This document shows, in pieces, positions 36,134-42,051 of a stretch of 64,000 bases of DNA; within the stretch, counting starts at the first letter, position 1, and each line of letters begins with the position of its first letter. Source of the DNA: Mucispirillum schaedleri ASF457 (GTDB taxonomy: Bacteria > Chrysiogenota > Deferribacteres > Deferribacterales > Mucispirillaceae); contig NZ_CP097562.1 in NCBI RefSeq assembly GCF_000487995.2, forward strand, positions 2,167,001 to 2,231,000, given 5' to 3'. The notes beneath the pieces were generated by a model. The model saw only the letters and a program-made list of their open reading frames with translations, had not been told where the DNA came from and did not search any database. The translations under genes and the position numbers were made by a program.

Positions 36134-36712
36134 ATGAGTGATGCACAGGTTATTGAACAAGTTTTAAATGGCGATACAGGTGCCTTTGAAATTTTAATAT
36201 TAAAATATCAGTCGCAGATATTTTATTCTGCTTTAAATATAGTAAAAAATAAAGAATATGCAGAAGATATTTGTCAGGATGCTTTTTTAAAAGCATATCA
36301 AAAACTTGATACTTTAATGGATAAAGAGCATTTTTATCCATGGTTAAAACGCATAGCAGTTAATCTTGCCCTTAACCACTATGAAAGAGATAAAAGAATA
36401 GTGGATATGGAAGATGAAGAAAGTGAAGTGGATTATTTTGACAGGTTGACAACTGGCGAATGTCCTGAAGACTATATTATTAAAGATGAGCTTAAAAAAT
36501 ATGTTAAATTTTTTGTAGACGGTCTGCCTGACAAATTTCGCAATATTATCATTTTACGCGAAGTAGAAGATTTAAGTTATGAAGAAATAGCAGAGATGTT
36601 AAATATATCTTTAGGTACTGTTAGAAGCAGGCTTTTTAATGCAAGGCAGATAATAAAAGAAAGACTTATTAAACAAGGTCTTATAGACAACGCTTTTGCA
36701 GAAGCTAAATGA
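36134..36712 (+). CDS. ECF sigma factor of RpoE type
   Basis: 192 residues from the ATG at 36134, preceded by AGAGGG; a TTG at 36086 in the same frame gives an unlikely hydrophobic extension. Region 2 spans FEILILKYQSQIFYSALNIV to EDICQDAFLKAYQKL and WLKRIAVNLALNHYERDKR; region 4 spans LPDKFRNIIILREVEDLSYE to EIAEMLNISLGTVRSRLFNA. The next three genes are an anti-sigma factor, an RseB-like protein and a DegP protease, the order of the sigma-E envelope-stress system of Gammaproteobacteria. It should control its own operon. Confidence 0.93.
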   Translation: MSDAQVIEQVLNGDTGAFEILILKYQSQIFYSALNIVKNKEYAEDICQDAFLKAYQKLDTLMDKEHFYPWLKRIAVNLALNHYERDKRIVDMEDEESEVDYFDRLTTGECPEDYIIKDELKKYVKFFVDGLPDKFRNIIILREVEDLSYEEIAEMLNISLGTVRSRLFNARQIIKERLIKQGLIDNAFAEAK

Positions 36713-36725
36713 AATGGAGCATAAT

Positions 36726-37268
36726 ATGAAAAAAGAATGTGTAGATATTAGACCTCTTTTATATGCTTATATTGATAATGAACTTGCAGGTGAGCAAAGC
36801 AGTATTGTTACAAGTCATATTTCTGAATGTGAAAGCTGTAAAGCACAACTTGCGTCAATGTATAGAGTGCGTGATATGGTAAAATCAGTTTATGCACCAA
36901 AAGAAGATATTGATTTATCTAAAAAAATTATGGCAAATATTAAATTTAATAATAAATATGGTAAAATACAAACTACTAAAATAAAAGAGAATATGGAAGA
37001 AAAAACTGTCAATATAAATAATAAAGCAAAGCAGTCTTTGCCAAAAATAGTTGCTGGTAAAGTGCTTTATATTGCAGTTGCAGCTGCTGCTGTAATATTT
37101 GCTATTGCTGCAACTGTTACATATTTTGAAAAATCTAACCCTGTGTCTGTTGAAATGGCAAACCAAACTTATGATAAATTTGAAGATTATGTTTTAGAGC
37201 ATTATACAAACTCTTATGCAGGTCCGTCGGCTCAGGCATCAGTGATTTCGGTAAATTTTGAAAAATGA
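36726..37268 (+). CDS. Zinc-finger anti-sigma factor (RseA-like)
   Basis: 180 residues from the ATG at 36726 with GGAG six bases upstream. The N-terminal anti-sigma zinc finger (zf-HC2) is seen as LLYAYIDNELAGEQ and HISECESCKAQL (HxxxCxxC). A membrane helix follows at about 107-130 (IVAGKVLYIAVAAAAVIFAI), then a short periplasmic tail of about 45 residues. By family knowledge it holds the sigma factor inactive at the inner membrane until proteolysis. It overlaps the rseB-like gene by four bases (ATGA). Confidence 0.9.
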   Translation: MKKECVDIRPLLYAYIDNELAGEQSSIVTSHISECESCKAQLASMYRVRDMVKSVYAPKEDIDLSKKIMANIKFNNKYGKIQTTKIKENMEEKTVNINNKAKQSLPKIVAGKVLYIAVAAAAVIFAIAATVTYFEKSNPVSVEMANQTYDKFEDYVLEHYTNSYAGPSAQASVISVNFEK

Positions 37269-38152
37269 TTCGGTTTATTCTTTCCATAGTATTGCTTTTA
37301 TCAACAGCAGGAAATATATTTGCTGCTGATAAAGCAGTTGTCTTTAAATGTTTAAATAAAAACAGGTATGAAGTCTATCTAAATCTGCAGGATGATTATA
37401 GAGCAGATTCTTCTATGCTTGGTTCTATTTCCCGCCAGCTTTTAAGGGGCTTTTTTTCAATAGATAGAATACCTGATAAATATTACAGTGTTGAGAAAAT
37501 AGATAATATTTCTTATTTTGGCTTTGATATAACACAATATACTGTTATTCCAAAGGATAAAGACAGGTTTAGACAAATATTATGGCTTGATAACAGCGAG
37601 CGTATTGTAAAATTAGAAGTATATGATAATGTAAATACATTCATGTTTGCTTTCAGTGGCTTTGACTATATGAATGGAGCAATGCACAGCCGTCATCATA
37701 AAGGCATGGGGCATGGTATGGGCAAAGGAATGAAGCGAGGCACGGTGGGGGGGGGCTTAGGTGAGGAACGAGAAGGTCCTAATGGCTATCGTGGAAATGT
37801 AGCAGATAAATTTAAATTTTGGGATACTCCAGAGTTTTATCACGGGTTTAGACATTTCCACACAACAGTTTTTAATAGAAATGTTTTTGATTTATCATTT
37901 GAAGATGGGATAAACAGATTTTCAGTATTTATAAAACCAGCAGACAGGCAGATAGAGCCTGTAAGCACAATAGTTTATGGTAACTATTTATTCAGCAGAA
38001 TAATAGATGATGTTGAATACACTGTATATGGCACAGTATCTTTTGGGTTTATGGAAGATATAATAAATCTTATCCATGAAAATATAAAAACAGTGATAGA
38101 TACTGCATCACAAGGCGGCATTTTAACATCAGAAATTTATAATAAAAAATGA
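37265..38152 (+). CDS. RseB/MucB-like periplasmic regulator with an in-frame G9 tract
   Basis: 295 residues with a signal peptide (1-20, ending IFA). The N-terminal part resembles the lipid-sensing domain of RseB (TVIPKDKDRFRQILWLDNSE), and the C-terminal part, from about 180, the smaller domain that contacts the anti-sigma factor. Between them, residues 137-178 are a Met/His/Gly-rich linker (HSRHHKGMGHGMGKGMKRG) carrying nine G (37747-37755). Loss or gain of one G brings a stop within four codons, leaving only the first domain. The translational coupling to the anti-sigma gene supports the RseB role. Confidence 0.8.
   Translation: MIRFILSIVLLLSTAGNIFAADKAVVFKCLNKNRYEVYLNLQDDYRADSSMLGSISRQLLRGFFSIDRIPDKYYSVEKIDNISYFGFDITQYTVIPKDKDRFRQILWLDNSERIVKLEVYDNVNTFMFAFSGFDYMNGAMHSRHHKGMGHGMGKGMKRGTVGGGLGEEREGPNGYRGNVADKFKFWDTPEFYHGFRHFHTTVFNRNVFDLSFEDGINRFSVFIKPADRQIEPVSTIVYGNYLFSRIIDDVEYTVYGTVSFGFMEDIINLIHENIKTVIDTASQGGILTSEIYNKK
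37747..37755 (+). repeat. G9 homopolymer, candidate phase-variation tract
   Basis: Nine consecutive G inside the rseB-like frame (codons 161-164, GTG GGG GGG GGC). At nine G the frame is open; at eight it reads into TAG and at ten into TGA. Confidence 0.85.
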
Positions 38153-38178: not shown

Positions 38179-39552
38179 ATGAAAAAATTATTTTTAGCAG
38201 CAATGCTTATTTTAGCTTTTACGGTAAATGCTTTTGCAATACCTTCTAGTTTTTCGCCTGTTGTAAAAAAAGCAGCTCCTAGTGTTGTAAATATAAGCAC
38301 AACAAAAACTGTTACTCGCCAGATAGACCCATTTTTTCAGGATTTTTTTGGCGGTATGTTTGGTGGAACTCATCCATTTGGCTTTGGAAACAGTGGTCTG
38401 CAGAAATATAAATCTACTGCATTAGGCTCAGGGTTTATTATTGATAGAGATGGTTATATAGTTACAAATAACCATGTAATTGAAGGGGCAGAAGAAATTA
38501 TTATTAAATTTCAAGATGATAGAGAGTTTAAAGCAGAAATTATTGGAACAGACCCGCTTACAGATTTAGCACTTTTAAAAATTGATACAAAAGGTGCAAA
38601 TATTACGCCTATTTTATTAGGCAATTCAGATACAGCAGAAATTGGCGACTGGGTTGTGGCAATAGGTAACCCGCTTGGTCTTGGCGGCACAGTAACAGCA
38701 GGTATATTATCAGCAAAAGGCAGAGTGTTAGGTGATGGACCATACGATAACTTTATACAAACAGATGTTTCTATTAATCCCGGAAACTCTGGCGGTCCGC
38801 TTGTCAATATGGACGGGGAAGTAATAGGTATTAATACTGCAATTATCCAGTCAGCTCAAGGGCTTGGGTTTGCTGTGCCTGTAAATATGCTTAAAAATAT
38901 ACTGCCAAAATTGAAGAAAGATGGCAAGGTATATAGGGGCTGGGTAGGTATAGTTATGCAGCCACTTGATGAACAGCTTGCAGCATCATTTGGTTTATCT
39001 GATACAAAAGGTGTATTGATTGCAGATGTTACAAAAGGTGAGCCGGGAGATAAAGCCGGGCTTAAAGCAGGAGATGTTATTGTTGCAGTTGATGGCAGGC
39101 AGGCACAAACATCAAGAGAGCTTGCAGGTATTATTGGCTCAAAAAGTCCAAATGAAAGAGTTGTTTTAACAATTATCCGTGATGGAAAAAGGCAGAATAT
39201 TACTGTAAGATTAGGAGAAAGACCAAGCAATAACCAAACAGCAGCAAATTATTATAATGTTAAGCCAAAACAAAGAGCTGGCGATATTGTTGTAAAAGAT
39301 ATAGATGCACAGCAGGCTAGAAAGTTAGGCATATCTAATGGGGTCATTATTACAAGCCTTAATGAAGATACTCAGGCATATAAAAAAGGTTTAAGAGAAG
39401 GTCATGTAATTGTTCTTTTAAACAACAAGGCTGTAAATAATGAAAACGATTTTTACAGAATTTATGATAAAATAAAAAAAGGTGATTTAATGGCAGTAAA
39501 AGTTGTGCTGCCTAACGGTTCAAACTTTATAGCATTTGCAAAATCAGAGTAA
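38179..39552 (+). CDS. degP: Periplasmic serine protease/chaperone DegP (HtrA)
   Basis: 457 residues with a signal peptide (1-20, ending AFA). Trypsin-like domain with catalytic triad H99 (NNHVIEGA), D129 (DPLTDLALLKID) and S204 (GNSGGPLVN). Two PDZ domains follow at about 245-345 (PGDKAGLKAGDVIVAVDG) and 370-455 (EDTQAYKKGLREGHVIVLLN). It degrades or refolds misfolded envelope proteins. AAGGAGG lies upstream. It is the last gene of the sigma operon, followed by a strong terminator at 39580-39617. In the sigma-E system the equivalent protease is a regulon member. Confidence 0.95.
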   Translation: MKKLFLAAMLILAFTVNAFAIPSSFSPVVKKAAPSVVNISTTKTVTRQIDPFFQDFFGGMFGGTHPFGFGNSGLQKYKSTALGSGFIIDRDGYIVTNNHVIEGAEEIIIKFQDDREFKAEIIGTDPLTDLALLKIDTKGANITPILLGNSDTAEIGDWVVAIGNPLGLGGTVTAGILSAKGRVLGDGPYDNFIQTDVSINPGNSGGPLVNMDGEVIGINTAIIQSAQGLGFAVPVNMLKNILPKLKKDGKVYRGWVGIVMQPLDEQLAASFGLSDTKGVLIADVTKGEPGDKAGLKAGDVIVAVDGRQAQTSRELAGIIGSKSPNERVVLTIIRDGKRQNITVRLGERPSNNQTAANYYNVKPKQRAGDIVVKDIDAQQARKLGISNGVIITSLNEDTQAYKKGLREGHVIVLLNNKAVNNENDFYRIYDKIKKGDLMAVKVVLPNGSNFIAFAKSE

Positions 39553-40029: not shown

Positions 40030-42051
40030 TTATTTTGGTATATTATAGCCTTTATTAACTATATACCAGCTTATAGCTTCACCTGCTTTCTTTTTATTCC
40101 AATATATTTTAGCAGTATTTATATCATTTTCATTTTCTTTTTCGTTGTTAAAATATTCAAGTTTCCCCCCCCCATTAAAGATATATCTTCCATTTGCAAT
40201 AGACTGGGCACCAATAGCAATTCTTTCTTTATCTATATTTTCATTTATATCATCAGTTACAAGGCTTTGTCCAAATGAATGGAATTTATAGCCTGCATGA
40301 GCTGTCATATTTAAAATAGTAGGCACAATGTCTTTATGGCTTCCGGCTGTATATTTTAGCTTATATTTATGCACCCCACTGCCATATATTATTAAAGGTA
40401 TAGATGTAGATGTAAATATTTTTCTATCAGGGTCTGGATAGCTTCTGTCAAAATGGTCGCCAGTAATAAAGAAAATACTGTCAGGGTATGATTCATAAGT
40501 TTTCTTAATAAAATCAGCTGCACTTTTAATAGAATATTCTGTTACTGTTAAAATTTCAGGTGTTATTCCTTGAAACCTTTTTTCTTTTGGATAATTAGTA
40601 TCAAGAAAATTTCTGATTTTTTCTGTATCAATATTATAGTATTTTTTTGTATCTATATCATAAGGCGGGTGGTTTGATGCAGAAAGTATCATATTAAATG
40701 TTGGTTTATCATGGTGTTTATCAAGGCTTTCAAGTATAAAGTCAAACCCTTCATTATCATATATACCCCATGTGCTTTTCTGTTTATTATGTATATTTTC
40801 CATACCGTAGCTTTTATTAAAGCCCTGTGATGTAGTGTATGAGCCTATTTTTCGCCATGCGGAGCTTCCAAAGTAAAAAAAGTTTGTATCATACCCTAAA
40901 TCTTTAAAAATTCTGCCAGTAGAAGAATCAAAACATGGTATTTTCCCAGTCATTTCGCTTACTGGGAAATATGTGCCGTAAAGCCCTGTAATCATCATAT
41001 CCATTGTTTCTATTGTGCCATATCCGTTTTGGATAAATACTGGGACTTTTAAGCCATCTTTTGAATTTGCAAGTGCAGCTAACTCACTTCCAATCCCCCC
41101 CCCGTTTATAAATTCTTCTGATAAATGATAATCTGAAAGTGATTCCATAATTATTAAAAATATGTGTTTAGCATTACTTTTACCATTATACAAAACTTCC
41201 TGTTCCATTACACTGCTGATATTATCTTGATTTGTATATTCATCTTCAAAATATATCTGCATAACCTGCTGTATAGTTTTGCCGCCTGCATATTTTTCAA
41301 AACTTTCACCTTTTATATCTTTATAAGCTCTATATACTCTGTCTAAATCATGCAGTGCACCGGGAGCTGCTTTTTTCAGGAAATTATTTTCTGGAAGTTT
41401 TACAATATAGCTTAAATCGCCGCCTTTAAGATTAAATGTTGAAGATGCTGCAAGTATTAAAATATAACTTATTAAAATCCCTAATAGCACAGTTTTTTTA
41501 ATAGAGATAGAGCTTTTTATATTTTCAATTTTTTTATATATTTTACTGTAAATAAATACAGCAATGGCAGTTAAAATCACAGATGCTGCAATTTTTGGCA
41601 GTGCATTATAATCACTATTTAGTGCAGTATGAAATATTGCAGACTGGTCATCATATATAACGCCAAGCATTATAATATTAAATGTATCATTAAAAATGCT
41701 GTAATAAGTGTCATTTACAAAGGATGCAATTATAATAATATATGAGATTATTGATGTAAATATCATAATAACAGGTGTTTTTGCTGATTTTATAAATGAA
41801 AAAAGAATATATAATGCGGCAAAAATAAAAGCAGCAGGTGCAGCAAGCCTGCCGTCATAACGAAACCCTGCAAACAGTGTTTGCCCTATATCAGAAACAG
41901 GCAGTGAATTTGAGCCATAAGCTCCAGTAATTGCAGAATTTAATATACCAGAGTTTATAATAAAACCTATTCTGCATAGTCCAAATATTATTAAAAGGTA
42001 TGCAAAAAATGTAATGATTTGAATATATGTTTTAAGAATTTTATTATTCAT
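40030..42051 (-). CDS. LTA-synthase-like membrane sulfatase (phosphoglycerol/phosphoethanolamine transferase type) with two G9 tracts
   Basis: 673 residues. Five membrane helices lie in the first 210 residues, then a periplasmic sulfatase-fold domain: FLIIMESLSDYHLSEEF (metal-binding Glu), YGTIETMDMMITGLY (nucleophile Thr region), SASNHPPYD and FFITGDHFDRSYPD (metal-binding Asp/His). This layout is that of LtaS and OpgB enzymes, which move phosphoglycerol or similar groups from phospholipids to envelope glycans. Codons 317-319 and 627-629 are GGG GGG GGG, two G9 runs that keep the frame open only at nine. The gene is divergent from the RND operon. Confidence 0.88.
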   Translation of the reverse strand: MNNKILKTYIQIITFFAYLLIIFGLCRIGFIINSGILNSAITGAYGSNSLPVSDIGQTLFAGFRYDGRLAAPAAFIFAALYILFSFIKSAKTPVIMIFTSIISYIIIIASFVNDTYYSIFNDTFNIIMLGVIYDDQSAIFHTALNSDYNALPKIAASVILTAIAVFIYSKIYKKIENIKSSISIKKTVLLGILISYILILAASSTFNLKGGDLSYIVKLPENNFLKKAAPGALHDLDRVYRAYKDIKGESFEKYAGGKTIQQVMQIYFEDEYTNQDNISSVMEQEVLYNGKSNAKHIFLIIMESLSDYHLSEEFINGGGIGSELAALANSKDGLKVPVFIQNGYGTIETMDMMITGLYGTYFPVSEMTGKIPCFDSSTGRIFKDLGYDTNFFYFGSSAWRKIGSYTTSQGFNKSYGMENIHNKQKSTWGIYDNEGFDFILESLDKHHDKPTFNMILSASNHPPYDIDTKKYYNIDTEKIRNFLDTNYPKEKRFQGITPEILTVTEYSIKSAADFIKKTYESYPDSIFFITGDHFDRSYPDPDRKIFTSTSIPLIIYGSGVHKYKLKYTAGSHKDIVPTILNMTAHAGYKFHSFGQSLVTDDINENIDKERIAIGAQSIANGRYIFNGGGKLEYFNNEKENENDINTAKIYWNKKKAGEAISWYIVNKGYNIPK
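40165..40173 (-). repeat. G9 homopolymer (coding strand), candidate phase-variation tract
   Basis: Nine C on the plus strand, giving Gly codons 627-629 of the sulfatase. Ten G would read GAA ACT TGA; eight G would end about 18 codons on. Confidence 0.8.
41095..41103 (-). repeat. G9 homopolymer (coding strand), candidate phase-variation tract
   Basis: Nine C on the plus strand, giving Gly codons 317-319 of the sulfatase. Ten G would read GAT TGG AAG TGA; eight G would reach TAG within eight codons. Either change removes most of the catalytic domain. Confidence 0.85.

Follow-up and report, generated by a model that had tools for sequence, protein, structure and literature searches.

The locus described here raises the question of whether a run of nine consecutive G (G9) inside the gene for an RseB-like regulator of the envelope stress response is a phase-variation switch. 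It lies in a stretch of 64,000 nucleotides from Mucispirillum schaedleri ASF457, positions 2167001-2231000 of a genome that consists of a single contig of 2.35 Mb; we call this whole stretch the window and number the features in it from its first base (Table 1), while loci elsewhere are given by their genome position. A first-pass annotation made from the sequence had proposed that slippage in the tract turns the brake on a sigma-E-like response on and off. Answering the question requires knowing what the gene encodes, how the tract affects its reading frame, whether such tracts are part of a wider repertoire in this organism, and whether rseB of related bacteria carries one as well.

Table 1. 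Features of the window discussed in the text, with positions counted from the first base of the window.
Feature	Position	Strand	Basis or detail
ECF sigma factor (Sigma70_r2, Sigma70_r4_2)	36137..36712	+	Pfam
Anti-sigma factor	36726..37268	+	zf-HC2 N-terminus, weak RseA_N match, one TM helix at ca. residues 113-131
RseB/MucB-like gene, 295 aa	37265..38152	+	weak Pfam N and C domains, profile match, predicted fold
Disordered Gly/Met/His/Arg-rich linker between the two domains, residues 144-178, containing G9	37694..37798	+	
G9 tract, in frame, codons 161-164 of the RseB-like gene	37747..37755	+	sequence, frame computation
DegP/HtrA-type protease, trypsin-like and PDZ domains	38179..39552	+	Pfam
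Membrane sulfatase-fold enzyme (Pfam Sulfatase), LtaS-like, 673 aa, two tracts	40030..42051	-	Pfam, ORF
G9 on coding strand, sulfatase codon 626	40165..40173	-	
G9 on coding strand, sulfatase codon 316; also in congener G002	41095..41103	-	

The operon layout is of the rpoE-rseA-rseB-degP or algU-mucA-mucB-mucD type, with genes for an ECF sigma factor and a membrane anti-sigma factor upstream of the RseB-like gene, whose start shares four bases with the end of the anti-sigma ORF, and a DegP-type protease gene downstream. The RseB-like protein itself is a divergent relative, with Pfam scores under the curated gathering cut-offs (MucB_RseB_C, 24.4 versus 30.1 bits; MucB_RseB, 17.5 versus 22.3). 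A profile built from 30 homologues of the genus, family, and order and searched against the PDB had Pseudomonas MucB (6in9) and E. coli RseB (2v42/2p4b) as its sole relatives, at E-values of 6e-4 to 3e-3. The predicted structure (mean pLDDT 81) has the two-domain fold of this family, and all 15 of the 15 Foldseek matches against the PDB at E<=0.001 were RseB or MucB structures (best E 5e-10), at a TM score of ca. 0.45 and with the two domains differently placed relative to each other. Based on the profile and fold matches, the product is a genuine RseB/MucB-type protein, and the first-pass annotation was right about its identity. By analogy with MucA-MucB (PMC7400510), it would bind the periplasmic part of the anti-sigma factor; the hydrophobic N-terminal start of the protein, MIRFILSIVLLLSTAGNIFAAD, is a putative export signal.

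The tract begins at the third position of codon 161 and ends at the second position of codon 164, and the sequenced cells carry it in frame, i.e., in the ON state. As computed from the sequence, the frame of 295 aa obtained with nine G would instead stop after 164 aa with eight G and after 166 aa with ten, so that a change by one unit puts the gene out of frame. Both truncation points lie between the two domains, and the C-terminal domain would therefore be lost. The first-pass description of nine G in surroundings of roughly 30% GC whose loss or gain of one base ends the protein after its first domain is accurate in all these respects, with a GC content of 31.5% across the window. Such a run is longer than this composition predicts: G/C runs in the window comprise five of length 5, none of length 6, 7, or 8, and three of length 9 (the tract in rseB and two in the sulfatase gene), versus ca. 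0.01-0.02 nine-long runs of G or C per window expected by chance under Markov models of order 2 or 3. Homopolymer lengths are error-prone, and the length of nine could in principle be a product of sequencing or consensus building. This is scarcely credible, given that with nine G the two conserved domains are read in one open frame across the tract, that the two other G9 tracts of the window keep a frame of 673 aa open, and that independent short-read MAGs of congeners show a length peak at nine as well.

The genome as a whole contains 49 G/C runs of at least eight bases (six of length 8, 33 of length 9, eight of length 10, and two of length 11), which account for all of its 104 8-mer matches, while chance would yield fewer than 0.1 such runs per window. 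Their length distribution is bimodal, with lengths 6 and 7 nearly empty. The genome-wide excess together with the length peak rules out a chance run in a Gly-rich stretch as the full explanation of the tract in rseB. In four congeners, the count is 35-39 tracts per genome and the length peak is likewise at nine, and poly-G 8-mer matches number 34-86 in eight of nine congeners and 4 in the ninth, whose genome is 57% complete. Genomes from other families of the order mostly have 0-16 such matches with a few high exceptions. Very high counts are found in G011 with 142, G024 with 104, and G037 with 491 poly-G 8-mer matches, so a repeated origin of the trait is possible.

The reading frame is open across the tract in 23 genes of the M. 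schaedleri genome and broken at the tract in at least five (608, 680945, 1014143, 1070453, and 2079255), i.e., other loci are found in both ON and OFF states. Genes with tracts include those for glycosyltransferases, MBOAT acyltransferases, HsdS, and Ig/PKD surface proteins, which are typical of contingency loci. Overall, the gene classes match those of known phasomes, with some unusual additions. Tract length and frame also differ between orthologues of different species. The sulfatase gene of the window carries its tracts at codons 316 and 626, the orthologue of G002 at codon 316, that of G009 at codon 364, and those of G001 and G006 at codon 254, where ten G leave the frame open in G001 and nine G break it in G006. 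The independent gain of tracts at differing codons suggests that a tract in this gene is selected for. A second sulfatase-fold gene of the genome (L077, 1113810) has a G8 tract. The type I restriction specificity gene hsdS (L068, ca. 680945) is broken by a G8 tract here but open with G9 in G003 and G004, which makes it a candidate phasevarion, and a gene for an outer-membrane-like protein (991193) is open with G9 in three genomes and broken with G10 in G003.

Tracts in intergenic regions sit between TTGACA and TATAAT, i.e., in the spacer of -35 and -10 promoter elements, and this arrangement recurs in congeners. Allowing for up to two mismatches among the twelve bases of the consensus, nine cases in the M. 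schaedleri genome are clear and retain an intact TTGACA box. Spacer promoters with C8-C11 and a total spacer of 14-17 bases (L071, L081, L083, L050, L053, L054, L055, L056, and L057; also in four congeners) are likely to be phase-variable. Downstream of them lie the gene of a GtrII-like protein and several small lipoprotein genes; three of these lipoproteins, at L054, L056, and L071, are homologous to each other.

Because of the excess in the genome, the shared peak at nine, the changes of length and frame across species, and the spacer promoters, poly-G phase variation is very probably a trait of the genus Mucispirillum. The first-pass interpretation of the tract in rseB as a slipped-strand contingency tract in the general sense is thus upheld by the 49 tracts, the peak in congeners, and the differences between orthologues, and the genus-wide phasome is a stronger finding than the single tract in rseB. 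Loss of mismatch repair as a cause of the many tracts is ruled out by the frames of MutS1 (859 codons) and MutL (633 codons), which are present and apparently intact. The rate of slippage and switching may therefore be modest and below that of Campylobacter; in both Campylobacter and Helicobacter, MutS and MutL are not intact in the way they are here.

Four paralogous TAT-exported molybdopterin oxidoreductases (608, 1014143, 1070453, and 2270982; L065, L073, L076, and L061) share a near-identical 5' leader in which a G9 tract follows the signal peptide; three of the genes are out of frame (OFF) and the fourth is in frame (ON), and the leader tract is also found in congeners. The set has the appearance of respiratory enzymes that are phase-variable and carry a modular leader. 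A response regulator fused to a HATPase domain (L066, 585472) has a C-run near the 3' end of its gene that is conserved in all four congeners with a length of 9 or 10, and a change in this length alters the C-terminal tail of the protein. Another gene (L049, 1558496) encodes a protein with M66 peptidase, TagA, and ricin-type lectin domains, possibly a mucin-degrading protease of the StcE/TagA type, with C9 in frame at codon 523. At L062 (2307925), a G9 tract precedes the start codon of a VgrG-like gene of type VI secretion by 12 bases, where a ribosome-binding site would lie.

Whether rseB itself takes part in this phase variation is a separate matter. Contingency tracts are usually, if not obligatorily, kept in the orthologues of relatives, and the first-pass annotation had itself counted the lack of a tract in homologous genes of relatives against its proposal. 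This comparison does speak against a switch in rseB: no G/C run longer than five was found in rseB of seven congeners, whose RseB orthologues are 64-87% identical, or in that of 22 more distant homologues (0/7 and 0/22), and the frame is intact in all 30 homologues. The one record labelled M. schaedleri in the species-representative collections (L044) encodes an RseB that is only 65% identical. The linker that harbors the tract is predicted with a pLDDT below 50 across residues 144-178, and the corresponding linkers of congeners vary in length and composition. A tract could therefore persist in this disordered, tolerant segment without having a function. The absence of the tract from 29 homologues, the intact frames throughout, and the disordered, fast-changing linker weaken the claim that rseB is a switch, and this part of the first-pass annotation is so far not supported. 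As a speculative aside, the RseB linker (MHSRHHKGMGHGMGKGM, window 37685-37760) is Met/His/Gly-rich in this clade of Mucispirillum, and sequences of this kind often bind copper or nickel, so that the linker might add metal sensing.

Two readings are compatible with the absence from relatives: a switch that appeared recently in this lineage, or an incidental run that the linker tolerates. In the latter case, GGGG seeds in the Gly-rich stretch would have passed the length required for slippage and drifted to the nine bases favored by this genome, and the tract, which encodes glycine in a flexible linker, would slip with OFF variants being purged, since RseB is needed, rather than form a selected switch. 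We consider this possible but rather unlikely. It would readily account for a G9 that is private to this genome and sits in an unconserved, disordered linker, for the GGGG runs in the linkers of congeners, and for the open frame in all 30 homologues. Two tracts in other regulators are equally private: one in a histidine kinase gene (1194694) is missing from 88% identical pieces of G002, and one in a chemoreceptor gene (843007) is missing from four orthologues. However, where purifying selection on a gene is strong, a G9 is a liability that synonymous GGN codons would remove (GGG makes up only 10.7% of Gly codons), and yet the run is unbroken. Moreover, privacy is not decisive. While 26 of the 49 tracts are matched by position in one or more of four congeners, the other 23 are not, which points to fast turnover in general, and with about half of the tracts unmatched, privacy alone is no proof that a tract lacks function. 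The private tracts of the histidine kinase and chemoreceptor genes, for both of which congeners have relatives that lack a tract, likewise leave room for a lineage-specific switch in rseB. Seen from the opposite side, regulators may simply be unstable members of the phasome, unlike glycan and surface genes.

Variation between cells is also not the only way in which a homopolymer can yield two proteins. Homopolymer runs in general are able to cause ribosomal or transcriptional slippage, and programmed frameshifting of this kind would let one genotype produce both full-length RseB and a form with the N-terminal domain only. The position of the tract at the boundary of the two domains would suit such a mechanism by giving two defined products. 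Nevertheless, it is highly unlikely, because the site is not conserved among homologues and because runs of G induce frameshifting less readily than runs of A or T.

We therefore return to replication slippage. The tract in rseB is real and probably slippage-prone, and it is a plausible candidate for a stress-response switch. Our preferred reading, which we hold with somewhat more confidence than doubt, is that G9 is a slippage-prone tract of the Mucispirillum contingency set, of recent origin and confined to this species, and that it formed in an unconserved segment, the Gly-rich linker of a periplasmic brake of the RseB/MucB type that acts on an ECF sigma factor of the sigma-E/AlgU-like kind. 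More tentatively, and with doubt prevailing, Mucispirillum may stochastically switch its sigma-E-like brake through the poly-G tract of rseB, as part of a phasome of ca. 49 tracts that includes respiratory molybdoenzymes, chemoreception, and promoters with poly-C spacers.

Replication slippage at G9 in growing populations would then cut RseB to its N-terminal domain of 164 or 166 aa. The C-terminal domain is the primary anti-sigma docking site of MucB/RseB (PMC7400510), so the truncated protein should not be able to protect the anti-sigma factor. By analogy with MucB/RseB, its loss of function would leave the anti-sigma factor more accessible to proteolysis, and the stress sigma factor would be released more readily, with higher activity and a corresponding response of its regulon in a subpopulation of cells. 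RseB of E. coli is a modulating brake and not the main one, and the expected effect is therefore a shifted set point rather than full activation. In OFF cells, the long untranslated stretch before degP might in addition lower DegP through polarity.

If the tract in rseB does act as a switch, cells with a raised set point of envelope stress would be present at all times in a clonal gut population. Bet-hedging would then act through a sigma factor instead of a single surface molecule, and a global stress regulator of a commensal would be under contingency control. Even without switching of rseB, the tract points to a large poly-G repertoire in Mucispirillum, a core commensal of the mouse gut. 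This wider repertoire is more worthy of attention than the tract in rseB on its own, and the population state of tract-bearing genes could confound work with gnotobiotic mice.

The kind of element described here has long been known. Its location in rseB and the repertoire of Mucispirillum are without an earlier report that we could find in the open-access literature searched; there we found no report of phase variation in Mucispirillum or of a repeat tract in rseB, for which the first-pass annotation had likewise known of no described contingency tract, and no description of a poly-G phase-variation repertoire in the phylum of Mucispirillum. The main text of the 2017 M. schaedleri genome paper mentions neither phase variation nor homopolymers or sigma factors.

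Among the closest known systems is mucA of Pseudomonas aeruginosa, a G-run hotspot in this very kind of regulatory module, where -1 slippage in a run of five G (G5) unleashes the AlgU/sigma-E-like regulon and results in mucoidy (PMC2781719). This run is conserved across strains of P. aeruginosa, though not in relatives of that species, and its mutation, described as mucoid conversion by mutation, is accentuated in mismatch-repair mutants (PMC2781719). Like the tract described here, it is a lineage-restricted G run in an anti-sigma/RseB-type module; unlike mucA with its five G in the anti-sigma gene, Mucispirillum carries nine G in rseB and has a genome that looks proficient in mismatch repair. 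In Vibrio vulnificus, rseB mutants are described as forming less opaque colonies and frequently mixed opaque and translucent populations (Brown and Gulig 2009, as cited in PMC7247339). According to this secondhand account, loss of rseB can affect population heterogeneity, though without a repeat tract and without rseB being the switching gene itself. In Campylobacter, Helicobacter, and Neisseria, poly-G/C contingency loci cause translational phase variation (e.g., PMC6321876, PMC5084427, PMC5953494). Mucispirillum resembles these genera in having tens of unbroken poly-G tracts of 8-11 bases per genome within reading frames, in their presence in surface, glycan, and restriction-modification genes, and in the OFF state of some of them. 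It differs from them as a gut commensal of the Deferribacterota with MutS and MutL present, a tract in a regulator of a sigma factor, and a repertoire known here from sequence alone. Phase-variable promoters of the Neisseria porA type have their poly-G/C run in the spacer, and the intergenic tracts of Mucispirillum between TTGACA and TATAAT are like them, though they concern other genes than rseB.
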